A stretch of DNA of 42,772 nt, taken from positions 1 through 42,772 of the forward strand of contig JAQTOP010000021.1 of NCBI GenBank assembly GCA_028713285.1, read 5' to 3'. The notes beneath the pieces are model-generated. The model made no database searches. It was given only the letters and a program-made list of their open reading frames with translations, and was not told the DNA's origin. The stretch's first letter is position 1, and every line of letters starts with the position of its first letter. A program made the translations under genes and the position numbers. Below, in pieces: positions 6,866 through 23,859 of the stretch. The DNA comes from Terrimicrobiaceae bacterium. Lineage in GTDB: Bacteria > Verrucomicrobiota > Verrucomicrobiia > Chthoniobacterales > JAATET01.

Positions 6866-7876
6866 ATGTTTGATCGAATCAGCGTGATCGGCGCCGGCGG
6901 CTGGGGCACCGCGCTGGCGGCTCTGCTCGCCGAGAACCGGCCCTCGGTGCGGCTCTGGGCTCACCATGCCGCGACGGCCGACCGGCTGCGCGCCGAGCGC
7001 GTGAACACCGACTACCTCCCCGGCGTGCGCATTCCCGACCAGGTCGAGGTCACGAACGACCTCGCGCTTGCGGCCAATGCCGACCTGCTCGTGGTGGTCG
7101 TGCCCTCTCGCGCGCTGCGCGGCGTGGCCGGGCGACTGGCGACCGCCGGGCTGCCCGACGACGCGGTGCTCGTCTCCTGCACGAAAGGCATCGAGCACGA
7201 TACGGGCTACCTCATGACGCAGGTGCTGGAGGATTGCCTTCCGGGCCGGCGGCTCGCGGTGCTGTCGGGACCGAATCTCGCCGCCGAAATCGCGCGCCGC
7301 ATTCCGGCGGCCGGCGTGATCGGTTCGCGCGACGCGGCGATCCTGCCCGAGTTGCAGGAATTGTTTTCCTTCGCCACCTTCCGCACCTACACGACCGACG
7401 ATGTCGAAGGCATCCAGCTCGGCGGCGCGTTGAAAAATGTTTTCGCGATCGCGGCGGGAGCGTCCGACGGCCTCGGCATGGGCGACAATGCGAAGGCCGC
7501 GCTCGTGACTCGCGCGCTCGCCGAGATGATGCGCCTCGGCGCGTCGCTGGGGGGCCGGCGCGAGACGTTCTCCGGCCTCAGCGGCATTGGGGACCTCATG
7601 GTCACCTGCTTCAGCAAGCACAGCCGCAACCGCGGATTCGGCGAGCGGCTGGGGCGCGGCGAGACCGCGGAACAAATCCAGGCTTCGATGAAGATGGTCG
7701 CCGAGGGCGTGCCGACCGCCCGCAGCGCGCTCCAGTGCGCACGGCGCCTTGGCGTCGAGGCGCCGATCATCGCGCAGGTGCATGCCGTGCTGTATGAGGG
7801 CCGCTCGCCCCGCGACGCGATGTGGGAATTGCTCGTGCGGCCGCCGAAGCGCGAATCGGACGACTCGCAAGCATGA
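6866..7876 (+). CDS. gpsA: glycerol-3-phosphate dehydrogenase [NAD(P)+]
   Basis: Reduces dihydroxyacetone phosphate to sn-glycerol-3-phosphate in the cytoplasm. The 336-residue protein shows the N-terminal Rossmann motif IGAGGWGTALA (9-19), CTKGIE, LSGPNLAAEIA, the catalytic region GGALKNVFAIAAG, and the substrate-binding FSGLSGIGDLMVTC followed by SRNRGFG. It lies directly after plsY, so G3P synthesis and first acylation are coupled. The stop overlaps the start of the next gene (ATGA). Confidence 0.97.
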   Translation: MFDRISVIGAGGWGTALAALLAENRPSVRLWAHHAATADRLRAERVNTDYLPGVRIPDQVEVTNDLALAANADLLVVVVPSRALRGVAGRLATAGLPDDAVLVSCTKGIEHDTGYLMTQVLEDCLPGRRLAVLSGPNLAAEIARRIPAAGVIGSRDAAILPELQELFSFATFRTYTTDDVEGIQLGGALKNVFAIAAGASDGLGMGDNAKAALVTRALAEMMRLGASLGGRRETFSGLSGIGDLMVTCFSKHSRNRGFGERLGRGETAEQIQASMKMVAEGVPTARSALQCARRLGVEAPIIAQVHAVLYEGRSPRDAMWELLVRPPKRESDDSQA

Positions 7877-8931
7877 GATCGAGCCTCCGGGCCCTGCCGT
7901 TTCTGTTCGTCGCGATCGCGCCGCTTCGCGCAATGGAGCCCGCCGCCGCGTTGCGATTGCCGGACGCGCGCATCGCATCCGCCGCAGGCTATTCCCGCAA
8001 ATGCGGCGGCCAGGCGCTCGTCGTGCTTCAGGCAGGCCGCACGCTGCACGAATCCTATGCGAACGGCGGCTCGCCCGACCGCGCGTTCTGGATCATGAGC
8101 ATCACGAAAAACCTCGCCGCGCTGGCCATCCTCGCCGCGCGCAGCGAAGGGTTGCTCGATCTCGATGAGCCCGTCGCGAAGACGATCCCCGAGTGGCGCG
8201 GCCGCGCGCGCCAGGAGCGCATCGCGATTCGCGAGCTGCTCAACCAGACGTCGGGGCTCGTCACCGGGTTCGACTCGATCTACGCGCGCGGCGTGCGCGA
8301 CAAGAACAAGCTCGCGATCGCCCTGCCGCTCGCCGCGGAGCCGGGAGCCTGTTTCGATTACGGCCCCGGCAACTACGAGCTGATCGAGGAAATCCTCCGG
8401 CGCAAGCTCCTGCCGCGGCGCACGGATCCGCTCGCCTACCTCACCGCGAAAATTCTCACCCCTCTCGGCGTGCATCCGGCGGACTGGCGGCGCGACCGGC
8501 GGGGGAATCCCTTTTTTTCCGCCGGCGCGAAGCTCACCGCGCGGGATCTCGCAAAGATCGGCGAATTCATTCGCGTGCAGGGCCGCGCGTGGATCGTGCC
8601 CTTGCTGCCGCCGGCGGCATTCAGCGGCGCGTTTGCCGGCTCAGCGGCGAATTCGATGTATGGGCTGAGCTTCTGGCTCAATGCAAATGTCACCCGCGCA
8701 GGCGCCGATCCGATTTCCATCGAGGGTGCGCTGGGCCGTTGCCGCCCGCCGGAGGAGTGGCGGCGGTCGAGCATCTCCAACGTTTCGCCGGCCGATCTCA
8801 TCGCGCTGGTCGGCTCCGGGGGCGAGCGCTGCTATATCGTCCCGTCGCGCAAGATTGTCGTCGTGCGCTACGGCAGGGGCTCGAACTTCAGCGACGCGGA
8901 GTTCCTGCGGCGCCTGTTTGACGGGCGGTAA
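7873..8931 (+). CDS. serine hydrolase, beta-lactamase (class C/PBP4*-like) fold
   Basis: A 352-residue protein with an N-terminal signal-like stretch (MRSSLRALPFLFVAIAPLRA), so probably exported. The beta-lactamase-family nucleophile motif SxxK is S76-ITK79 in WIMSITKNLAAL; the second motif, normally YxN, reads Y163-GP in FDYGPGNYELIEE, and ELLNQTSGL is the usual family segment. Relatives include esterases, D-aminopeptidases and 6-aminohexanoate-dimer hydrolases; the substrate is not predictable. Start chosen at the ATG overlapping the gpsA stop. Its translational coupling to gpsA may simply reflect compact packing. Confidence 0.85.
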   Translation: MRSSLRALPFLFVAIAPLRAMEPAAALRLPDARIASAAGYSRKCGGQALVVLQAGRTLHESYANGGSPDRAFWIMSITKNLAALAILAARSEGLLDLDEPVAKTIPEWRGRARQERIAIRELLNQTSGLVTGFDSIYARGVRDKNKLAIALPLAAEPGACFDYGPGNYELIEEILRRKLLPRRTDPLAYLTAKILTPLGVHPADWRRDRRGNPFFSAGAKLTARDLAKIGEFIRVQGRAWIVPLLPPAAFSGAFAGSAANSMYGLSFWLNANVTRAGADPISIEGALGRCRPPEEWRRSSISNVSPADLIALVGSGGERCYIVPSRKIVVVRYGRGSNFSDAEFLRRLFDGR

Positions 8932-8967
8932 TGCGGCGGGCTCGCGCGCTTTGCACTTGACCCACCC

Positions 8968-11562
8968 ATGGGGCCTGAAAAGCGTCTTCGCGTGCAGCAG
9001 GCAAAACGCGAGGCCAGGAGCAATCGAGCGGCGGCGGTGGTCCATTGGAACGAGCTGCTCGACGCCTCCGGACAGCCGCGCGAAATTTACGAGCCGCTTT
9101 TCCGGCGCTTCGCGAGCGCCACGCGCGGCGAACTCAAGCGCATCGACGAGCAGCTCGAGGCCACGATGCGCGAGATGGGCGTCACGTTCGATATTCCCCG
9201 GGACAGCCCGTGGGGGCGGCGGCCCTGGTTTTGCGATCTGCTTCCCCAGGTTTTCACGGCGGGCGAATGGCGGGTGCTGGCCGGCGGAATGGCGCAGCGG
9301 CTGCACGCCTACGAGTGCTTCCTCCGCGACGTGTATGGCGAGCAGCGCATCCTCCGGCAGGGCATCGTCCCGCTTCAGCCGGTGCTCGGCAGCCCGTATT
9401 TCCAACGCGCGGCCCGCGCGCTGAAGCCGCCCGGCGGCCGGTATCTGCACCTCAGCGGCATGGCGGTCGGGCGCGCGCCGGACGGGCGCATGGTCGTGAA
9501 GCACCACTACTTCAGCCACGCGTCGGGCATGTCCTACATGATCCAGAATCGCCGCGCGATGGCCCGGGTGCTGCCGCAGGCGTTTCTCGATTACTCGATC
9601 CATTCCGTCACCGAGGCCACGACGGACATCCTTGAGGTCCTGCGCGGCTATGCCCGCGACGCGGAGCCGACCATCGTCCTCCTGTCGCCGGGGCAGGGAA
9701 GCGCGGCGTATTCCGAGCACAGCTTTCTCGCCAGGCGCATGGGAATCCCGCTCGTGCAGGGCGGCGACCTGATCGTCCTCAACGACCACGTCTATTTGAA
9801 AACCGTGTCCGGCCTCGAGCGGATCGAGGTGATCTATTCGCGAGTTTCCGACACCTGGCTCGACCCGCTGGTCTTCCGCCGGGATTCGCTGCTCGGCGTG
9901 CCCGGCATTGTCCAGTGCATCCGCCAGGGCACGGTCGCGGTCGTGAATGCGGTCGGCTCGCAGCTGATGGACGATCGCGCGATGCTGCCCTTCGCGCCCG
10001 CGCTCATCCGCTATTACCTCGGCGAGACGCCGCTGCTCGATGACCTCGATACCTACTGGCTCGGCGACCTCGACCAGCGCGAGGTGGTGCTCAATGACCT
10101 CCCGCGCTTCATCGTCCGCCCCATCTATGGCGAGCGAATTCTCACGCCCGATGAAAGTGAGCCGTTCGACGAACGGCGGCAGCGCGCCATGCTGCGCGAG
10201 ATTCTCGAGAACCCGGCCGGCTTCGTCGCCCAGCCGCGCGGATCCTCGGCGCTCACGCTGTGCTACGAAAGCGGACGGCCCCGCACGCGGCACCAGGATC
10301 ACATCCTCTTTGCCCTGCATCGAGACGACGGCGACTGCGCCGTCTTTCCCGGCGCGCTCACCCGCGTGGCGGAGGAGGGCTCGTTTTTCACAGCGTCCGA
10401 GCTGGGCGGAGGCAGCAAGGACACGTGGGTCGAGATCGCGCCCGGCACCGCGGCCGACGCGGGCCCGCGCCCTGCGCGCGATGTGCATCCTCCCTCGCGG
10501 CATGTGACGAGCCGCGTGGCGGAGGCGTTCTACTGGACCGGGCGCTACCTCGATCGGGCCCGCAACCTCGCGGCGATGATCGCGGTGATCGAGTCGCTGG
10601 AGACCGAGGAATTGAATTCCACCGAGCGCACGCTGTATCGCCCGATTTGGAACCGCATGCTGCCGCCTCTCGAGGGCGGGCGGGCCAGGGGGGAAAGCAT
10701 CTCCAGCGTCGGCGGACGCTACCGGCTTACGTTCGACCCCGCCGGCAGCGGTTCGGTATGGAGTTCCATCGAGCGCGCGGCAAACAACGCCGAATCGATT
10801 CTCGAGTGCCTGAGCAACGAGGCCGGCGGCACGCTCAGCCGGATGCGTTCGCTCTTTGCCGCGCCGCGCAGGCACGCGCGCCTGAGCGACGCGAAGCGGG
10901 CGGCTCTCACGCGGCGCACGTGCGAGCAGATTACCGAGCTGGTCGCGCAATTTTTCGGAATGGCGCAGACCACGATGATCGCCGACGGCGGCTGGCGATT
11001 TTGCGAGATCGGCGAGCGCGTCGAGCGGGCGGCGATCACGGCGAACGCGCTCGCGACAATGACGCGCTCGTTGCTGCGCACGGCGGGTCCGGCGGGCGAG
11101 CATGCGCGCGAGATTCAGCTCTCGGCGTTCCTGCGTCTGCTCAACTGTCGCGACGCCTACCGGCGCGTGTATCAAATGCGCATCGAGCCGGGGCCGGTGT
11201 TCCAGATGCTCTGGCAGAATCCGATGGTGCCGCGCTCGGTGAACCGCTGCCTCACCCATTGCCGCGACCTGCTCGCCCGCTCGCAATCCGAGGCGGCTCC
11301 CGGCCTGCAGCGCACCCTCGCCGGCATCGAGGCGCTGCGCGACGAGGTGCTGCAGACCGACTGGGACCAGCTCGCGGAGCGCGAGATCGAGTCCGGGGCG
11401 CCGGGCTCGGCCAACGCCGCCGAGCTGGCCGGCCGCGTCAATGACCTCCTGGACCACACGCTTGCGATCCATCACTTGATTGCGGATGGATTTCTCAACC
11501 ACCAGATTCACATGAGGGCGGCGGACCAGCCGCTGCTGACGGGTTTCTCCCATGCGGTTTGA
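8968..11562 (+). CDS. circularly permuted ATP-grasp / alpha-E domain fusion protein
   Basis: An 864-residue two-part protein. Residues about 70-480 match the circularly permuted ATP-grasp family (DUF404/DUF407, COG2308): YECFLRDVYGEQRIL, FSHASGMSYMIQNRRAMARVLP, IVLLSPGQGSAAYSEHSFLARRMGIPLVQGGDL with DHVYLKT, and SLLGVPGIVQCIRQGTVAVVNAVGSQLMDD. Residues about 510-850 are the helical alpha-E domain (DUF403, COG2307), starting SRVAEAFYWTGRYLDRARNLA. These are usually two neighbouring genes. Family-level knowledge (Iyer and Aravind's amidoligase work) predicts ATP-dependent amide-bond formation, possibly peptide tagging. It overlaps the first transglutaminase gene by 11 bp. Confidence 0.9.
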   Translation: MGPEKRLRVQQAKREARSNRAAAVVHWNELLDASGQPREIYEPLFRRFASATRGELKRIDEQLEATMREMGVTFDIPRDSPWGRRPWFCDLLPQVFTAGEWRVLAGGMAQRLHAYECFLRDVYGEQRILRQGIVPLQPVLGSPYFQRAARALKPPGGRYLHLSGMAVGRAPDGRMVVKHHYFSHASGMSYMIQNRRAMARVLPQAFLDYSIHSVTEATTDILEVLRGYARDAEPTIVLLSPGQGSAAYSEHSFLARRMGIPLVQGGDLIVLNDHVYLKTVSGLERIEVIYSRVSDTWLDPLVFRRDSLLGVPGIVQCIRQGTVAVVNAVGSQLMDDRAMLPFAPALIRYYLGETPLLDDLDTYWLGDLDQREVVLNDLPRFIVRPIYGERILTPDESEPFDERRQRAMLREILENPAGFVAQPRGSSALTLCYESGRPRTRHQDHILFALHRDDGDCAVFPGALTRVAEEGSFFTASELGGGSKDTWVEIAPGTAADAGPRPARDVHPPSRHVTSRVAEAFYWTGRYLDRARNLAAMIAVIESLETEELNSTERTLYRPIWNRMLPPLEGGRARGESISSVGGRYRLTFDPAGSGSVWSSIERAANNAESILECLSNEAGGTLSRMRSLFAAPRRHARLSDAKRAALTRRTCEQITELVAQFFGMAQTTMIADGGWRFCEIGERVERAAITANALATMTRSLLRTAGPAGEHAREIQLSAFLRLLNCRDAYRRVYQMRIEPGPVFQMLWQNPMVPRSVNRCLTHCRDLLARSQSEAAPGLQRTLAGIEALRDEVLQTDWDQLAEREIESGAPGSANAAELAGRVNDLLDHTLAIHHLIADGFLNHQIHMRAADQPLLTGFSHAV

Positions 11563-12421
11563 GATCACGCATTCCACGGACTACCGCTACCGCGGCTCGG
11601 CCATCGAGGCCTACCTCGAGGCGCGGCTCACGCCGCCGGAGACGGCGACCCAGCATATCCTCAGCCACCGCATCGAGATCGTGCCCGACCTGCCGACGAC
11701 GCATTACACGGATACGTTCGGGAATCCCGTCGCCTTCTTTTCGCACACGCTGCGGCACGACCGGCTGGCCATTTACAACCGCCTGGTCGTCGAGACGACC
11801 GCTCCGCGCCTGCCCGTCGAGGCGCTCGAGATTCCCGTCGCCGAGGCGCGGCAGTTGTTTTCATCCGTGCTGCTCGATTACTTCGACTACCTGCAGCCGA
11901 CGCCGAACGTTCCGGTGGGAGGCCCGGCGGCGGGATGGGGGCGGCAGTATTTGGGGCCCGGCGTCGCGCTGCAGGAGGGGCTCGATGCGTTGAACGGCGC
12001 GATCCATCGCACGTTCGCCTACCGCCCCGGCACGACCGATAATTCCACCCCGCTGCGCCTTGTCTGGAAGGCGAAGCGCGGAGTCTGCCAGGATTTCGCG
12101 CACGTGATGCTCAGCGTGCTGCGCACCGCCGGCCTGCCCTCGCGATACGTCTGCGGCTACATCGAGACCGACGCGCCCCGCTCGCAAACCGGCCGCCGCC
12201 TCGTGGGAGCCGTGGCCACGCACGCGTGGGTCGAGGTGCTCGTCCCGGGTTTGCAATGGGTCGCGCTGGATCCCACCAATAATCGATGGTGCGCCGCGCA
12301 GCACGTCGCGGTATCCTTCGGCCGCGACAGCCGGGACGCCGCGCCCGTGCGGGGAACATTCAAGGGCGGCGGTGGACAGGCGATGAAAGTCAGGGTCAAC
12401 ATGAAGCGAATCAAGGGATGA
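11552..12421 (+). CDS. transglutaminase-like cysteine peptidase family protein (first copy)
   Basis: A 289-residue protein with the bacterial transglutaminase-like N-terminal beta region (MRFEITHSTDYRYRGSAIEAYLEARLTPP) and catalytic core. The triad is visible: Cys in KRGVCQDFAHVMLSVLRTAG, His in VATHAWVEV and Asp in WVALDPTNN. Members may cleave or transfer isopeptide/amide bonds; in this operon the likely partner chemistry is reversal or processing of bonds made by the ATP-grasp and DUF2126 enzymes. No signal peptide, so cytoplasmic. Overlaps the genes on both sides (11 bp and 4 bp), implying tight translational coupling. Confidence 0.92.
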   Translation: MRFEITHSTDYRYRGSAIEAYLEARLTPPETATQHILSHRIEIVPDLPTTHYTDTFGNPVAFFSHTLRHDRLAIYNRLVVETTAPRLPVEALEIPVAEARQLFSSVLLDYFDYLQPTPNVPVGGPAAGWGRQYLGPGVALQEGLDALNGAIHRTFAYRPGTTDNSTPLRLVWKAKRGVCQDFAHVMLSVLRTAGLPSRYVCGYIETDAPRSQTGRRLVGAVATHAWVEVLVPGLQWVALDPTNNRWCAAQHVAVSFGRDSRDAAPVRGTFKGGGGQAMKVRVNMKRIKG

Positions 12422-13269
12422 ACATCGGAATCCGCTATCACACGCGCTACGCATACGACGAAGCAGCCAGTTTCTCACCGCACCTTGTCCGGATGTTTCC
12501 GCGCAACGGCCACTACGTGCGCGTCGCCCGCACCGTCTTCGAAACCGGGGGCGATGCGGACGTGCAATACCGGCACGACCTTTTCGACAACGAGGTGGCC
12601 CGCTGCTTTTACCCGGAGAAATGCAGCGCGCTGGATTTTCGCCTCAATCTCGATCTCGAACTCATCGTGCGAAATCCCTTTCACTTCCTGCTCGATTCCC
12701 ATGCGTTGCGCCTGCCCTTCGAGTATCTGCCAAACGAAGCCGCCGTGCTCGATCCGTTCCTCGGCGGGGACGTCGATTTCAAACTGCCCTCCGCGCTCGC
12801 CAGGCCCAATGCGCCGCGCCCGACCGTCGAGGCGCTCGTCAATTTGAACAAATGGATTTTCGAGAATCTCGCCTACGAACGTCGCGAGGAGGGCGAGGCG
12901 ATGGCGCCCGCCGCGACGCTCGCAGCCGAACGCGGCGCCTGCCGGGACTTCGCCGTGCTGCTCGCCGCCGTCCTCCGCGAGCACGGCCTCGCCGCTCGGC
13001 TCGCGAGCGGATTCCTGTGGGAGCCGCCGGACACGCCGAAGGAGGACTTGCGCGCCGAGAGCGCGCTCCATGCGTGGGTCGAGACCTACCTGCCCGGCGC
13101 GGGCTGGGTCGGACTCGATCCGACGAATGGCGCTTTCTGCGACCATCACCGCATCACCGCCGCGGTCGGCCTCACGCCCGACGACATCAGCCCCATCAAG
13201 GGCTGCTATTATGGCCATAAAAAAATCGAGAGCCACATGACGGCATCGCTGGAGATCAAGCCTCGATGA
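12418..13269 (+). CDS. transglutaminase-like cysteine peptidase family protein (second copy)
   Basis: A 283-residue paralogue of the preceding gene; start is the ATG in the ATGA overlap (MNIGIRYHTRYAYDEAASFSP). The triad is again complete: Cys in RGACRDFAVLLAAVLREHG, His in SALHAWVETYLPG and Asp in WVGLDPTNG. It corresponds to the part that in many Proteobacteria is the N-terminal half of one long transglutaminase-DUF2126 protein; here the two halves are separate genes joined by another ATGA overlap at 13266. Cytoplasmic; substrate unknown. Confidence 0.92.
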   Translation: MNIGIRYHTRYAYDEAASFSPHLVRMFPRNGHYVRVARTVFETGGDADVQYRHDLFDNEVARCFYPEKCSALDFRLNLDLELIVRNPFHFLLDSHALRLPFEYLPNEAAVLDPFLGGDVDFKLPSALARPNAPRPTVEALVNLNKWIFENLAYERREEGEAMAPAATLAAERGACRDFAVLLAAVLREHGLAARLASGFLWEPPDTPKEDLRAESALHAWVETYLPGAGWVGLDPTNGAFCDHHRITAAVGLTPDDISPIKGCYYGHKKIESHMTASLEIKPR

Positions 13270-15287
13270 GTGCGAAGCCGAACGGCGCCCTTTCCGCCGC
13301 CCGTTGGGCCGACGCCATTTTCGCGAAGGAGGGGATTCGTCTCACGCTTGGCGGCGAGCCGACCTACGTGCCGGAGAATCCGGAGGGCGCCGAGTGGTCC
13401 TTCTCGGCGGTCGGGCCGACGAAACTCTCCTACGCGCGCCGCATGGCCGACGAGCTGTTGAAGACCCGAATGGCCGGCGGCGTCGTCTTTTTCAGCCCCG
13501 GCAAACAATATCCCGGCGAGGTGAACCCGCGCTGGGCGCTGCGCATGGTCGCCCGCCGGGACGGCAAAAAGCTCTTCCGCGCCACGCCGTCGAACCGCCG
13601 CACCGAGGAGCCGCAGGTCCTCGCGTTTCTGCAATCCCTCCCCTCCCGCCTCGGGCTTGATGACGGCTGGATGAGTTTCGCGGATCCGAAGGTGAAGGCC
13701 GTGAAGACGTGGGTTCTCCCGCTCGATCACGACGATCAGCGGTGGATCTCCGCCAAATGGAAGCTCAAGCCCAGGGAGCGCGTGCTCACCGCCGCCGAGG
13801 GGCCCGCCGGCCTGCGCCTGCCGCTCTACCTGCTGCCGTCCGACGTGCCCGGCCGCGCCCTCGTCGCCGAACTCAACGACGGACGGCTCCACATTTTTTT
13901 CCCACCGCTTTCCCAATCCGCATTCACGGCGCTGGTGCGCGCCGTCGGCGAATCGCTCGCCGCTGCGAGGATCGGGCTCTACGAACTCCAGGGCTACGTG
14001 CCCCAGGATGTCGAGCAGGTCTGGAAGACCGTCGGCCTTACCGCCGACCCCGGCGTGCTCGAGATCAATCTTCCGCCCTGCGCCGACTGGCAGGAATACG
14101 ACGGGTGGATCCACGAGGTCACCGCCTGCGCCGAGCGCTGCGGCTTGCGTTCGTGGAAGCAGCCCGTCGGCGAATATCCCTCCGGCACCGGCGGCGGAAA
14201 TCACCTGCTCTGGGGCGGCCCGGGAATCGACGAGAACCCCTTTTTTTCCCGCCCGGCGTGGCTCGCCTCCATCCTGCGCCACTTCCAGCGCCATCCCTCG
14301 CTCGCCTACCTCTTCACCGGCTGCTACGTCGGCGCCTCCTCCCAGGCGCCGCGCCCCGACGAATCGTCGAAGGAACTTTTCGATCTCGAGATGGCCTATC
14401 ATTTTCTCGAGACGCTGCCCCCCGGCGATCACCGCGCGCTCATCAACGAAACGCTGCGCCACCTCCAGACCGACGTCACCGGCAACGCGCACCGCTCCGA
14501 GACGAGCTTCGACAAGTTCTGGAACCCCGGCTGGCCCGGCGGCTGTCTTGGCCTCATCGAATTCCGCGCCGTCGAGTCGCTGCCCTCCGCCGAGTGGATG
14601 AGCGCCGTGATGCTGCTCTGGCGCTGCATCGCCGCCCTGGCGATCGTGAAGCCGGCGGGCGCGCCGCTGCGCGTCTTCCGCGAAGAGCTGCGCGACCGCT
14701 ATTTCATGCCGGCCTGTCTGCTGGCCGATCTCGACGAACTGCTGGACGAGCTGCGCGCGGCGGGGTGTGAGATTCCGCGCGCGGTTTTTCGCAGGATTTG
14801 GGAATGGCGCTTTCCGCTCCTGCTCCCGCATCGGGAGGGCGACGCGCGGCTCGAGGTGCGCCGCGCCCACGAGAGCTGGCCGCTGCTCTGCGAGACGCCT
14901 GTCGAGGGCGGATCGACCAGCCGGTTCGTCGATACTTCGATGCATCGCCTCGAGGTGCGCGCGAACGACGCCTTCGCTCGGAGCTGCACGCTTTACGTCC
15001 AGGGGCGCCGGCTTCCGCTCACCCCCACGGCCTCCGACGTGCAGCTCGCGGGATTGCGGTATCGCCGCAGTTGCCTGTATCCCTGCCTGCACCCGGGCAT
15101 CCCCATCCATCTGCCGCTCGATTTCGTCATCACCGATTCCGCGAGCGGAGAGCCGCGCGCGGCCTATCGAATGGATTTCAGCGCCGTCAAATTTTCGCCG
15201 ACGAACGACGCCGGGCGCCCGCGACGCGCGAAGCCCTGCCGCGCGATCTTCAAGGGCGCGCTGACATTCGACCTGCGGCTCGATTGA
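13266..15287 (+). CDS. DUF2126 putative amidoligase
   Basis: A 673-residue protein of the DUF2126 family (COG4196; Pfam describes it as a putative amidoligase with glutamine-synthetase-like fold). It opens with the characteristic GIRLTLGGEPTYVP and continues with WSFSAVGPTKLSYARRMADEL, GGVVFFSPGKQYPGE, LEINLPPCADWQEYDGWIHEVT, PSGTGGGNHLLWGGPG, and NPGWPGGCLGLIEFRAVES, where the acidic and Gly-rich residues expected for a metal-ATP site lie. It usually follows a transglutaminase domain in the same polypeptide; here that is the upstream gene. The sulfatase starts 5 bp after its stop. Confidence 0.92.
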   Translation: MSAKPNGALSAARWADAIFAKEGIRLTLGGEPTYVPENPEGAEWSFSAVGPTKLSYARRMADELLKTRMAGGVVFFSPGKQYPGEVNPRWALRMVARRDGKKLFRATPSNRRTEEPQVLAFLQSLPSRLGLDDGWMSFADPKVKAVKTWVLPLDHDDQRWISAKWKLKPRERVLTAAEGPAGLRLPLYLLPSDVPGRALVAELNDGRLHIFFPPLSQSAFTALVRAVGESLAAARIGLYELQGYVPQDVEQVWKTVGLTADPGVLEINLPPCADWQEYDGWIHEVTACAERCGLRSWKQPVGEYPSGTGGGNHLLWGGPGIDENPFFSRPAWLASILRHFQRHPSLAYLFTGCYVGASSQAPRPDESSKELFDLEMAYHFLETLPPGDHRALINETLRHLQTDVTGNAHRSETSFDKFWNPGWPGGCLGLIEFRAVESLPSAEWMSAVMLLWRCIAALAIVKPAGAPLRVFREELRDRYFMPACLLADLDELLDELRAAGCEIPRAVFRRIWEWRFPLLLPHREGDARLEVRRAHESWPLLCETPVEGGSTSRFVDTSMHRLEVRANDAFARSCTLYVQGRRLPLTPTASDVQLAGLRYRRSCLYPCLHPGIPIHLPLDFVITDSASGEPRAAYRMDFSAVKFSPTNDAGRPRRAKPCRAIFKGALTFDLRLD

Positions 15288-15292
15288 CCGCC

Positions 15293-16645
15293 ATGGCGCG
15301 AAACATCCTCCTCCTCATGGCGGACGAGCTGCGGTTCGACCTGCCGGGCTTCATGGGCAATCCGATTGCCCGGACTCCCACGCTCGACCGGCTGGCGCGC
15401 GAAGCCGTCGTCTTCGACAACGCCTACACGCCGTCGCCCGTTTGCGTGCCGGCGCGCCAATGCATCGCGACGGGCAAATACCCGCTGCACGCCGACTGCG
15501 AGCGGTTCGGCGAGGACATTGCGCCCGGCTCGATGACGTTTGCGCGGGCATTCTCCGAGGCGGGTTACCTCACCGTCGCGTGCGGGAAGCTCCATCATCG
15601 CGGACCCGATCAAATGCAGGGCTGGCTCCAGCGCATCGGCGCGGAATGCGCGGTGCAATGGCCGAACACCTACGGCGCGGAAGGGCGCGAGCAGATCGGC
15701 CGGCTCAAATGGCGCGGCGCCGAGGAACTCGAACTCGCCGGCCCGGGAACCTCACCGCTCGCGCTGCACGACCGTCTCACGGTGGACGGCGCGGCGGATT
15801 TTCTGCGCATGCACTTCGAGGGCATGTATCGGCGCACCGCCGATGTGCCGCCGCTGCTGCTGATGGTGAGCCTGCAGCAGCCGCACTTCCCGCTGCTGGC
15901 CGATCCGGAGCTTCTTGCCTACTACCACGACCGCGTGCGGCCCCGGCTGCGCGAGGAGGCGCCGCGGCATCCGGCGCTGGGCCGTGGCGCGCTTCCGTGC
16001 GGCGAGGCCGTCACCCCGCAGCAGGTGCGCACCGCGACCGCCGCATACTACGCGCTGGTGGAGACTGCCGACCGCGAACTGGGCCGCGTCATCGACGCGA
16101 TCGAGGCCCGGGGCCAGGACCTCGACGACTGGCTCGTTGTCTTTTTGTCCGACCACGGCGAAATGCTCGGCGAGCACGCGCTGTGGGAGAAAAGGAAATT
16201 CTACGAGGGCAGCGTCCGGGTGCCGATGTTCGTGCGCGCGCCGCGCCGGTGGCCCGCCGCCCGCCGCCGCGAAAACGTCAGCACGCTCGATCTCTTCCCG
16301 ACCCTGTGCGCCGCCGCCGGGATCGAAGCGCCCGCCGATCTCGACGCGCGCAGCCTCGCCCCCCTGCTCGAAGGCCGGACCGGCGACTGGCTGAACGAGA
16401 CATATGCGCAATACGACACCGACGAGTTCATGCTCAAGCGTGGCAATTTGAAGTATCTCACCTTTGGCGGCAAGGGGCCGGACGTGCTCTTCGACCTCGC
16501 GGGCGATCCGGGGGAATCCTCGAACCAACTGGCGGTCCATTCCCTGGCGGCCTCCGCCGAGGAAATGCGCGAGCGGCTCCACGCGTTTATCGAGACGCGG
16601 ACACAGCGCCGATTCGTTGATGACGCCGCGCGGGCGTTCGGCTAG
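15293..16645 (+). CDS. sulfatase (formylglycine-dependent family)
   Basis: A 450-residue sulfatase. The N terminus reads MARNILLLMADELRFD, whose Asp residues bind calcium; the modification motif CxPxR is C51-VPAR, where Cys51 would be converted to formylglycine; downstream come GKLHHRG, and FLSDHGEMLGEH with the second metal-site Asp/His. The layout resembles choline-sulfatase and N-sulfoglucosamine-type enzymes. No signal peptide is seen, so it may act in the cytoplasm. Start at 15293 places the gene 5 bp after the DUF2126 stop, suggesting cotranscription with the amidoligase operon. Substrate not determinable. Confidence 0.9.
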   Translation: MARNILLLMADELRFDLPGFMGNPIARTPTLDRLAREAVVFDNAYTPSPVCVPARQCIATGKYPLHADCERFGEDIAPGSMTFARAFSEAGYLTVACGKLHHRGPDQMQGWLQRIGAECAVQWPNTYGAEGREQIGRLKWRGAEELELAGPGTSPLALHDRLTVDGAADFLRMHFEGMYRRTADVPPLLLMVSLQQPHFPLLADPELLAYYHDRVRPRLREEAPRHPALGRGALPCGEAVTPQQVRTATAAYYALVETADRELGRVIDAIEARGQDLDDWLVVFLSDHGEMLGEHALWEKRKFYEGSVRVPMFVRAPRRWPAARRRENVSTLDLFPTLCAAAGIEAPADLDARSLAPLLEGRTGDWLNETYAQYDTDEFMLKRGNLKYLTFGGKGPDVLFDLAGDPGESSNQLAVHSLAASAEEMRERLHAFIETRTQRRFVDDAARAFG

Positions 16646-16659
16646 TAGCTGATTTCGCC

Positions 16660-18198
16660 ATGTCCGCCAATCAACCTCTCACGGGCCATGATCGGCCTGG
16701 CGACCCCTGCACCATCGTTATTTTCGGGGCCTCCGGCGATCTCACGAAGCGCAAGCTCCTCCCCGCGCTTTACAATCTCAAGGCGCTCAAGCTCCTCCCC
16801 GCGAACTTCGCCGTGATCGGCATCGCCGTGAGCGAAAGCAATGACGAGCTCTATCGCGAGAAGATCACGACCGAGATCAAGCAGTTCGCCACCCACGCGG
16901 TCGATGAGGCCGAATGGGACGACTTCGTGAAGCGCTCGTATTACATCTCCGGCGACTTCAACGACGCGAATACCTTCGCGCACCTCGCCGGCAAGATCGC
17001 CGACGTCCAGAAGACCCACGATCTCCCCGGCAACGTCCTCTTCTACCTCGCGATCTCGCCCACGTTCTTCGCGAAGGTCGTCGATCAGCTCGGCGCCGCC
17101 GGGCTCACCACGGAGACCGAGGATGCCTGGCGTCGCGTCATCATCGAGAAGCCCTTCGGCCGCGATCTCGCGAGCGCGCGCGAACTCAACAACGAAATCT
17201 CGAAGTCCCTGCAAGAGCGGCAGATTTATCGCATCGATCACTATCTCGGGAAGGAGACCGTGCAGAACATCATGGTCTTCCGCTTCGGCAACTCCGTTTT
17301 CGAGCCGATCTGGAACCGCCGCTACATCGAATACGTCCAGATCACCGTCGCGGAGGAGCTCGGCGTCGAGCTGCGTGGCGGTTACTACGACCAATCCGGC
17401 GTGCTGCGCGACATGGTGCAGAATCACATCCTTTCCGTCCTCTCGCTCATCGCGATGGAGCCGCCGACCTCGATCACCGGCGACAGCGTGCGCAACGAAA
17501 AGGTGAAGGTGCTCGAAGCCATCCGCCCGATGGAGCCCGAGGAAGTCATCGAGCACACCGTGCGCGGGCAATACGGCCCCGGCCTCATCGACGGGAAAAA
17601 CGTGGCGGGCTACCGCACCGAGCCCGACGTGAATCCCAAGTCGAACACGGAAACCTTCGTTGCCATGATGCTCAAGGTCGAGAACTGGCGCTGGGCGGAG
17701 GTGCCGTTCTACATCCGCTCCGGCAAGCGTCTCGCCACCCGCACGACGGAGGTTGTCATCGGTTTCCGCCGCGCGCCGCTGCTGCTCTTCGGCAGGGAAA
17801 TCGAAAGCGAGATTCCGCCGAACCGCCTCGTCCTGCACGTGCAGCCCGAGGAGGGCATCACTCTCGACATTCACGCGAAGCGCCCGGGGCCGAAGATTCA
17901 GATCTCGAACATCCCGCTGAACTTCAACTACGCGGAGTTTGGCGAGACCAGCGCCGCCACCGGCTACGAGACGCTGCTTTACGATTGCATGGTCGGCGAG
18001 ACCGCGCTCTTCCACCGCTACGATTCCGTCGATGCCTCCTGGCGCATCGTAAATCCCATCCTCGACGTCTGGCAGGCCCTGCCCGCGCGCGATTTTCCGA
18101 ATTACGCCGCCGGCACCTGGGGGCCGAAGGCCTCCGACGACCTCATCGCCCGCGACGGCCACCGCTGGCATCACTACCCGCTCGCGAAGGTGCAGTAG
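16660..18198 (+). CDS. zwf: glucose-6-phosphate 1-dehydrogenase
   Basis: First step of the oxidative pentose phosphate pathway: glucose-6-phosphate to 6-phosphogluconolactone with NADP+. The 512-residue protein has the coenzyme motif IFGASGDLTKRKLLPALYNL (about 22-41), EKPFGRDL, and the active-site stretch RIDHYLGKETVQNI, with FRFGNSVFEPIWNR after it. Length is normal. Start at 16660 (MSANQPLTGHDRP) follows the sulfatase by 14 bp; glk follows by 3 bp, giving glucose phosphorylation and oxidation in one unit. Confidence 0.97.
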   Translation: MSANQPLTGHDRPGDPCTIVIFGASGDLTKRKLLPALYNLKALKLLPANFAVIGIAVSESNDELYREKITTEIKQFATHAVDEAEWDDFVKRSYYISGDFNDANTFAHLAGKIADVQKTHDLPGNVLFYLAISPTFFAKVVDQLGAAGLTTETEDAWRRVIIEKPFGRDLASARELNNEISKSLQERQIYRIDHYLGKETVQNIMVFRFGNSVFEPIWNRRYIEYVQITVAEELGVELRGGYYDQSGVLRDMVQNHILSVLSLIAMEPPTSITGDSVRNEKVKVLEAIRPMEPEEVIEHTVRGQYGPGLIDGKNVAGYRTEPDVNPKSNTETFVAMMLKVENWRWAEVPFYIRSGKRLATRTTEVVIGFRRAPLLLFGREIESEIPPNRLVLHVQPEEGITLDIHAKRPGPKIQISNIPLNFNYAEFGETSAATGYETLLYDCMVGETALFHRYDSVDASWRIVNPILDVWQALPARDFPNYAAGTWGPKASDDLIARDGHRWHHYPLAKVQ

Positions 18199-18201
18199 CG
18201 C

Positions 18202-19215
18202 ATGGCCCGGCCGCCAAAACTGCTGCTGCTCGCGGGGGACGTGGGCGGCACGAAGACGAATCTCGCGATCTTCGCGCCGGACGAAAAGGAGGGCAGCCTC
18301 CAACTGCTGCGCAACAAGCGCTACCCGAGCGCCGATTTCGACAGCCTCAACGCCATCGCCCAGCGCTTTCTCGGAAAGGGCGACGAGGAGAAAATCCACG
18401 CCGCCTGCTTCGGCGTGCCCGGTCCGGTGCGCAACAACCGCTCCCAGCCGACGAATCTCAAATGGGAGGTCGATTCCGGCACGCTGCGGGCCGACCTCGG
18501 CATCCCGTGCGTCCATCTGCTTAACGACCTCGCCGCGAATGCCTATGGCATCACAGAGCTCGCGGACGCTGATTTCGAAACGCTCCAGACCGGCCTGAAG
18601 AATGCCTCCGGCAATCGCTGCGTGGTCTCGCCCGGCACCGGCCTCGGGGAGGCGGGGCTGTATTGGGACGGCGGCAAATACCGCGTGTGGGCTTGCGAGG
18701 GCGGACACACCGACTTCGCGCCGCGTTCGGAGATCGAGGTCGAGCTGCTTGCCTACCTGCAAACGCGCTTTGGCCACGTGAGCAACGAGCGCGTCATCTC
18801 CGGTCAGGGCCTTGCGAACATCTACGCCTTCCTGCGCGACACCGCCAAATTTCCGCAGACTCCCGCCGTGGCCGAAGAGATGAAGACTGCGGACGTCGCG
18901 CAGGTCGTCACGAAATTCGCCGAGGCCGGCTCCTGTCCGATGTGCATGCAGGCCATCGAGATTTTTGCCCACTGCCTCGCGATGGAGGCGGGCAATTTTG
19001 CCCTCAAGGCGATGGCGACCGGCGGCGTCTATCTCGGCGGCGGCGTTCCCGTGAAGCTGCTGTGGAAGCTTCGGACGCCGGCGTTCCGCGAGGCCTTCAA
19101 TGCGAAGGGCCGCCTCGAGCCGGTCATGGAGAGCATGCCGGTGAGGGTCATCCTCAACGATCAAGCGGCCCTGCTCGGCGCCGCCCGCTACGCGCTGGAC
19201 GCCCTGGAGGAATAG
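18202..19215 (+). CDS. glk: glucokinase
   Basis: Phosphorylates glucose with ATP to glucose-6-phosphate, the Zwf substrate made next door. The 337-residue protein is of the E. coli Glk type: ATP phosphate motif LLAGDVGGTKTNLAIF (9-24), CFGVPGPVRNN, LLNDLAANAYGI with the likely catalytic Asp in LND, SPGTGLGEAGL, and CEGGHTDFAPRSEIEVELL. Gene gap to zwf is 3 bp. Cytoplasmic. No regulatory signal of its own is visible. Confidence 0.95.
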   Translation: MARPPKLLLLAGDVGGTKTNLAIFAPDEKEGSLQLLRNKRYPSADFDSLNAIAQRFLGKGDEEKIHAACFGVPGPVRNNRSQPTNLKWEVDSGTLRADLGIPCVHLLNDLAANAYGITELADADFETLQTGLKNASGNRCVVSPGTGLGEAGLYWDGGKYRVWACEGGHTDFAPRSEIEVELLAYLQTRFGHVSNERVISGQGLANIYAFLRDTAKFPQTPAVAEEMKTADVAQVVTKFAEAGSCPMCMQAIEIFAHCLAMEAGNFALKAMATGGVYLGGGVPVKLLWKLRTPAFREAFNAKGRLEPVMESMPVRVILNDQAALLGAARYALDALEE

Positions 19216-19254
19216 TCTCGATCGGGGGATGGACCTTCCCGTGGTGCATGGCAC

Positions 19255-21725: not shown

Positions 21726-23859
<2,134 letters not shown>

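Follow-up and report, generated by a model that had tools for sequence, protein, structure and literature searches.

A transglutaminase-DUF2126 operon of a Terrimicrobiaceae bacterium with a fused ATP-grasp/Alpha-E protein predicted to be non-catalytic

The closest described system is the peptide-modification system that Iyer et al. 2009 predicted, as cited in PMC6376114 and PMC5666114, from the gene set COG2308 (ATP-grasp), COG2307 (Alpha-E), COG1305 (transglutaminase), COG4196 (DUF2126) and COG3484 (Anbu). These gene families are widespread as a set. Nitrogen-limited expression is known only for a related operon of the Anbu type, PP_2685-2688 of Pseudomonas putida, which is reported to be induced under that condition (PMC8050072, PMC7801951, PMC3325844), and an association of these domains with urea metabolism has been described in marine metagenomes (PMC3597751). 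Anbu itself is presented in PMC6376114 as having no peptidase activity, and its candidate catalytic residues are given there as Thr1, Asp17 and Lys32. A literature search that extended to the COG names and to Rv2566/Rv2567 returned no functional study or biochemistry for DUF2126.

We analysed a 42,772-nucleotide stretch of DNA from a Terrimicrobiaceae bacterium (the window; contig C40 of an assembly of 3.53 Mb in 157 contigs, 98% complete), in which four overlapping genes on the forward strand bring these families together. The first (8968-11562) encodes a single 864-residue protein, the fusion, in which Pfam and an AF2 model place a CP_ATPgrasp_2 domain (approximately residues 24-490; 6e-114) ahead of an Alpha-E domain (approximately residues 514-845; 5e-46). 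It overlaps by 11 bp the gene of a first transglutaminase, TG1 (11552-12421; 289 residues), which is followed by that of a second, TG2 (12418-13269; 283 residues); both proteins carry Bact_transglu_N and Transglut_core domains, and the correct start codon of TG2, the ATG at 12418, overlaps the stop codon of TG1 in the sequence ATGA. A further ATGA overlap, with the TG2 stop, holds the start of the DUF2126 gene (13266-15287), whose 673-residue product is of the short class and matches PF09899 with 453 bits (2e-135) against a cut-off of 27. The ORF coordinates and the Pfam matches bear out the families, gene order and overlap given in a preliminary description of this DNA. NCBIfam gave no match to any of the four proteins, and PADLOC returned no anti-phage defence match. 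Matches to sigma-54 promoters were at chance level only, with none just upstream of the operon, and a scan for sigma-70 promoters was empty. Compared with the closest named relatives, the Verrucomicrobiota metagenome assemblies L062 and L063 (78% identity in DUF2126), the four genes have dN/dS values of 0.12-0.22; they are therefore functional and under purifying selection, and decay into a pseudogene is ruled out for each of them.

Several other features lie in or around the operon. A gene for a beta-lactamase-family serine hydrolase (7822-8931, forward strand) ends 36 bp upstream and has no counterpart in the related loci compared. On the reverse strand, antisense ORFs of 978, 870 and 633 residues face real genes, at 8641-11577, 16642-19254 and 13209-15110; the one checked against Pfam, at 16642-19254, gave no match, and high-GC coding sequence probably explains these long frames as shadow ORFs. 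A TPP riboswitch (RF00059; 21742-21857, forward strand) scores 54.9 bits, barely over its cut-off, and lies directly 5' of an ORF of 663 residues (21852-23843).

In glutathione synthetases the E-x-N pair serves in Mg binding. When the fusion is aligned with structure 3n6x, whose numbering is used for all the motifs here (E161, D162, N163, K368 and GGYG), the E-D-N triplet is replaced by H-H-Y, the preceding aspartate is gone, the ATP lysine has become Arg and the GGYG loop is missing. A wider alignment retains every one of these motifs in the stand-alone ATP-grasps (41/41) and none of them in the window protein. Neither the E-D-N triplet nor the GGYG loop is kept in any of 27 other fused proteins, some of which preserve single residues (E161 in 7, K368 in 9), and the Enterobacter and Granulicella fusions likewise lack E-x-N. 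The features expected of a catalytic ATP-grasp, namely the E-x-N Mg ligands, the ATP lysine and GGYG, are thus lost from the fusion and all present in a paralogue encoded on contig C19. In a tree of 52 sequences, one fully supported branch splits 30 fused from 22 stand-alone ATP-grasps, with long branches among some of the fused forms. Inactive versions, often fused to Alpha-E, are mentioned in the Pfam text for CP_ATPgrasp_1, and the principle of such a protein is already known. The preliminary description made no mention of the loss at this locus, and had let its proposal hang on the active-site residues of both the ATP-grasp and the DUF2126 protein; those of the former are gone, and those of the latter, considered below, appear largely intact.

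The AF2 model of the fusion (pLDDT 82) matches 3n6x over residues 24-490 with a Z of 47.4 and glutathione synthetases with a Z of about 22-26. Its C-terminal half is all-helical, and in comparisons of the modelled Alpha-E fold the best matches reach a Z of about 10 or less, the background level of helical bundles. The dN/dS of the gene against L062 is 0.14, and that of the degenerate part 0.15. The loss of the motifs, the retention of the fold and the purifying selection therefore point to a non-catalytic role that has been maintained. Judged from its sequence, the fused ATP-grasp is almost certainly non-catalytic, and the two halves of the protein most likely form a substrate-binding or scaffold subunit. 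We regard it as very improbable that the fusion is still a ligase in which metal and nucleotide are held by other residues, for example K-H-H-Y-F-S in the place of E-D-N. Within the clade of the window these substituted residues are themselves conserved in part, and a retained fold under strong purifying selection would fit such an enzyme; against this, the changes affect the ATP lysine, the glycine loop and both Mg ligands together, and the E-D-N triplet and the GGYG loop each occur in no fused protein.

Since the apparent ATP-grasp ligase of the operon has lost its active site, the DUF2126 protein is probably the one that works as a ligase. A sequence-based search found no solved structure for DUF2126. 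For its AF2 model (pLDDT 89) the best glutamine synthetase match has a VIA Z of 16.7 over 282 residues with an rmsd of 4.5. Gamma-glutamylmethylamide synthetases are among the structural matches to this model, and YbdK and, with an E of 0.08, Dop (5lrt) among those from Foldseek. The polar motifs GGEPT, PGVLEIN, GGGNH, HRSE and EFR are mostly kept, and most of the polar residues that do not vary within the two classes of DUF2126, long and short, are present in the window protein, which departs from residues conserved elsewhere at H476R, R470V and D394N. The conserved motifs, compared by motif order alone, follow the order of the catalytic Glu/His/Arg of glutamine synthetase. By these signs the active site of DUF2126 appears largely intact. 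The full Cys-His-Asp triads attributed to both transglutaminases in the preliminary description are indeed there (C175/H218/D234 in TG2) and are invariant across 16 aligned sequences.

The two classes of DUF2126 in our phylum sample are a long one, mostly of 1115-1190 residues with an N-terminal transglutaminase, and a short one, mostly of about 680-740 residues without it. Scores of 124-125 bits with L055 and L057, versus 44-45 for TG1, mark TG2 as the equivalent of the N-terminal half of the long form; DUF2126 had rightly been described as split from its transglutaminase half, and ATP-grasp and Alpha-E as joined in one protein. In some Verrucomicrobiota (L084, L085, L087, L090, L093, L099 and L134) TG2 is fused to a short DUF2126, and in the Cyanobacteria Synechococcus and Cyanobium an intact stand-alone ATP-grasp, Alpha-E, TG2 and a short DUF2126 stand side by side; fusing and splitting are therefore fluid, and the window is not peculiar in this respect. 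Nor is the layout as a whole special: Verrucomicrobiota repeatedly have these four genes in this order, including relatives in Chthoniobacter and Spartobacteria, the ATP-grasp/Alpha-E fusion has further occurrences in Acidobacteriota and, grouped with the rest of the full set, on a plasmid of Enterobacter, and stand-alone DUF2126 is a standing subfamily. The locus retrieved from the cultured Chthoniobacter flavus Ellin428 (L074) contains TG1, TG2 and DUF2126. A genome of the same genus (G240) has both a long, TG-fused and a short DUF2126 (C11:131921-134539 and C66:18155-20041), and the classes can thus coexist. An unusual long module is seen in G078 (C1:71515-75965; L054), where DUF2126 lies within a 1905-residue open frame adjoining a 1098-residue ATP-grasp/Alpha-E fusion, with a transglutaminase in the overlapping region.

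Comparison of the flanks among related loci showed that distant relatives have only the four genes in common, and that the closest also share a sulfatase, G6PD, glucokinase and the genes that follow. A conserved small substrate peptide, which the preliminary description proposed to look for near the operon, was not found encoded in these flanks, and the conserved neighbours of the operon include neither an amine transporter nor a catabolic gene. These results bear on a possible but doubtful alternative, small-molecule nitrogen salvage, in which DUF2126 would glutamylate an amine or amino compound in the manner of PuuA and GmaS, the transglutaminases would hydrolyse the gamma-glutamyl amide, and no protein would be tagged. 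The glutamine synthetase-like fold with gamma-glutamylmethylamide synthetases among its matches, the lack of a conserved peptide gene nearby, the nitrogen-limitation response of the related operon (PMC8050072, PMC7801951, PMC3325844) and the urea-metabolism association seen in marine metagenomes (PMC3597751) are all consistent with it. However, peptides are the usual substrates of transglutaminase folds, two transglutaminases and an Alpha-E protein exceed the needs of such a pathway, and an amine transporter or catabolic gene is what the conserved neighbourhood does not contain.

Further parts of the system are encoded elsewhere in the genome. Contig C19 carries the intact ATP-grasp (504 residues) with a separate Alpha-E protein (334 residues), contig C53 a third transglutaminase of the type found in the system, and contig C127 an Anbu (G000:C127:1363-2088, reverse strand), which matches Klebsiella Anbu with an E of 4e-58, a designed Anbu with 2e-67 and natural Anbu structures with 7e-59 or weaker, and which keeps Thr1, Asp17 and Lys32. 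The preliminary description was therefore right that no Anbu adjoins the operon, and the genome-wide search for COG3484 that it suggested does find one. An apparent absence of Anbu from the genome in a search with Pfam PF00227 was a false negative, revealed when a real Anbu protein was used as the query: the C127 protein reaches 16.3 bits where the cut-off is 22.4, and Pfam-based surveys can therefore undercount Anbu.

The distribution of these parts was surveyed in 240 genomes of the phylum, which are related to each other, so that co-occurrence p-values overstate the independent evidence. Stand-alone Alpha-E is present in 59 of them, the fusion in 51 and DUF2126 in 43, and the occurrences are nested: all 51 fusion genomes and all 43 DUF2126 genomes also have the stand-alone Alpha-E, and DUF2126 occurs without the fusion in one genome only (G086, in 370 contigs). 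We infer from this nesting that the intact pair is something on which the DUF2126 module relies, or at least something that it never occurs without. The distance from the stand-alone Alpha-E to the fusion or to DUF2126 is no more than 12 kb in 21 of the 43 genomes with DUF2126. The fusion occurs without DUF2126 in 9 of its 51 genomes and may therefore have another role. Five genomes of one family, probably Methylacidiphilaceae (G008, G042, G054, G072 and G152), have the fusion and a divergent stand-alone Alpha-E, which in G054 is only a fragment, and no DUF2126; this combination is possibly a minimal form of the system.

Anbu, counted with Anbu-protein queries in place of PF00227, is present in 7 of the 240 genomes, 4 of which also have DUF2126. 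The search for it came up empty in 39 of the 43 genomes with DUF2126, and the DUF2126 module therefore does not need it; Anbu is dispensable here. The same counts weigh on a pupylation-like tagging of proteins, in which DUF2126, glutamine synthetase-like as PafA is, would ligate a small tag or an amino acid, the transglutaminases would remove it, and Anbu, where present, would degrade or process the product. The prediction of Iyer et al. 2009, as cited in PMC6376114 and PMC5666114, speaks for such tagging; the glutamine synthetase-like fold with Dop in the Foldseek list agrees with it, and so do the three residues kept in the Anbu of this genome. We nevertheless think it unlikely, given that Anbu is so rarely found with DUF2126 and is described in PMC6376114 as without peptidase activity, and that no small ORF flanking the operon is conserved.

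The reading we prefer, and to which we give an even chance of being correct, is that the operon encodes an amide ligase that is centred on DUF2126, is coupled to the transglutaminases and includes the ATP-grasp/Alpha-E fusion as a non-catalytic subunit, and that it relies on the intact pair. DUF2126 would activate a carboxylate with ATP and then join it to an amine, as its fold and conserved motifs suggest. TG2, which the majority of other lineages have joined to DUF2126, would act on the substrate of DUF2126 as an amide hydrolase or transamidase, and TG1 would be a second enzyme of this kind, roles to which the fusions and the triads point. The 864-residue fusion would be an adaptor, binding substrate or serving as a scaffold, and catalytic ATP-grasp activity would be supplied by the pair on C19 as a second ligase, with Anbu as a further, optional partner. 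Cooperation of this pair with the operon is proposed because of the strictly nested occurrence and the repeated clustering; in this genome the operon (C40) and the pair (C19) are on different contigs, and the cooperation is indirect. A bolder version appears distinctly unlikely to us: as an obligate pseudo-enzyme subunit, the fusion would join the intact ATP-grasp/Alpha-E in a two-ATP-grasp, DUF2126-coupled complex, and its K-H-H-Y-F-S would bind something new. If true, this would be a split peptide-conjugation machine with a dead enzyme as its adaptor. The separation of dead from probably live ligases, and the tie between the fusion and genomes that have the intact pair, can guide the first knock-outs and the first enzyme assay.

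Set against known systems, the window operon belongs to the peptide-modification system of the Iyer et al. 2009 prediction, and the preliminary description of it as the best candidate for an undescribed peptide-tagging system is not borne out, since the gene set is that of the prediction and the layout is common elsewhere. All four families are found in one operon with the matching domain set, COG2308 and COG2307 being fused, the transglutaminases having the Cys-His-Asp triad and DUF2126 being glutamine synthetase-like; the window differs in that transglutaminase and DUF2126 are separate, that there are two transglutaminases and that Anbu is on another contig. What is new here is the naming of a probably dead ligase, the nested dependence on the intact pair, the two classes of DUF2126 and the location of Anbu. 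The DUF2126 model has the fold of the glutamine synthetase/GCS2/Pup ligase superfamily, within which, at about 11% identity, DUF2126 is a family of its own. With the Anbu operon, as in Yersinia bercovieri or Klebsiella (CP125156), the window shares the ATP-grasp, Alpha-E and transglutaminase families; the parts of that operon are found here on C19, C53 and C127, whereas the window operon has a predicted non-catalytic fused ATP-grasp, and DUF2126 in place of Anbu. The sets on Granulicella pACIX901 and Enterobacter p1_120063 (TG-DUF2126, ATP-grasp-Alpha-E fusion, TG) have the same fusion with the same loss of E-x-N; unlike in the window, their DUF2126 is of the long class and fused to a transglutaminase, and in Enterobacter the stand-alone pair is also adjacent.
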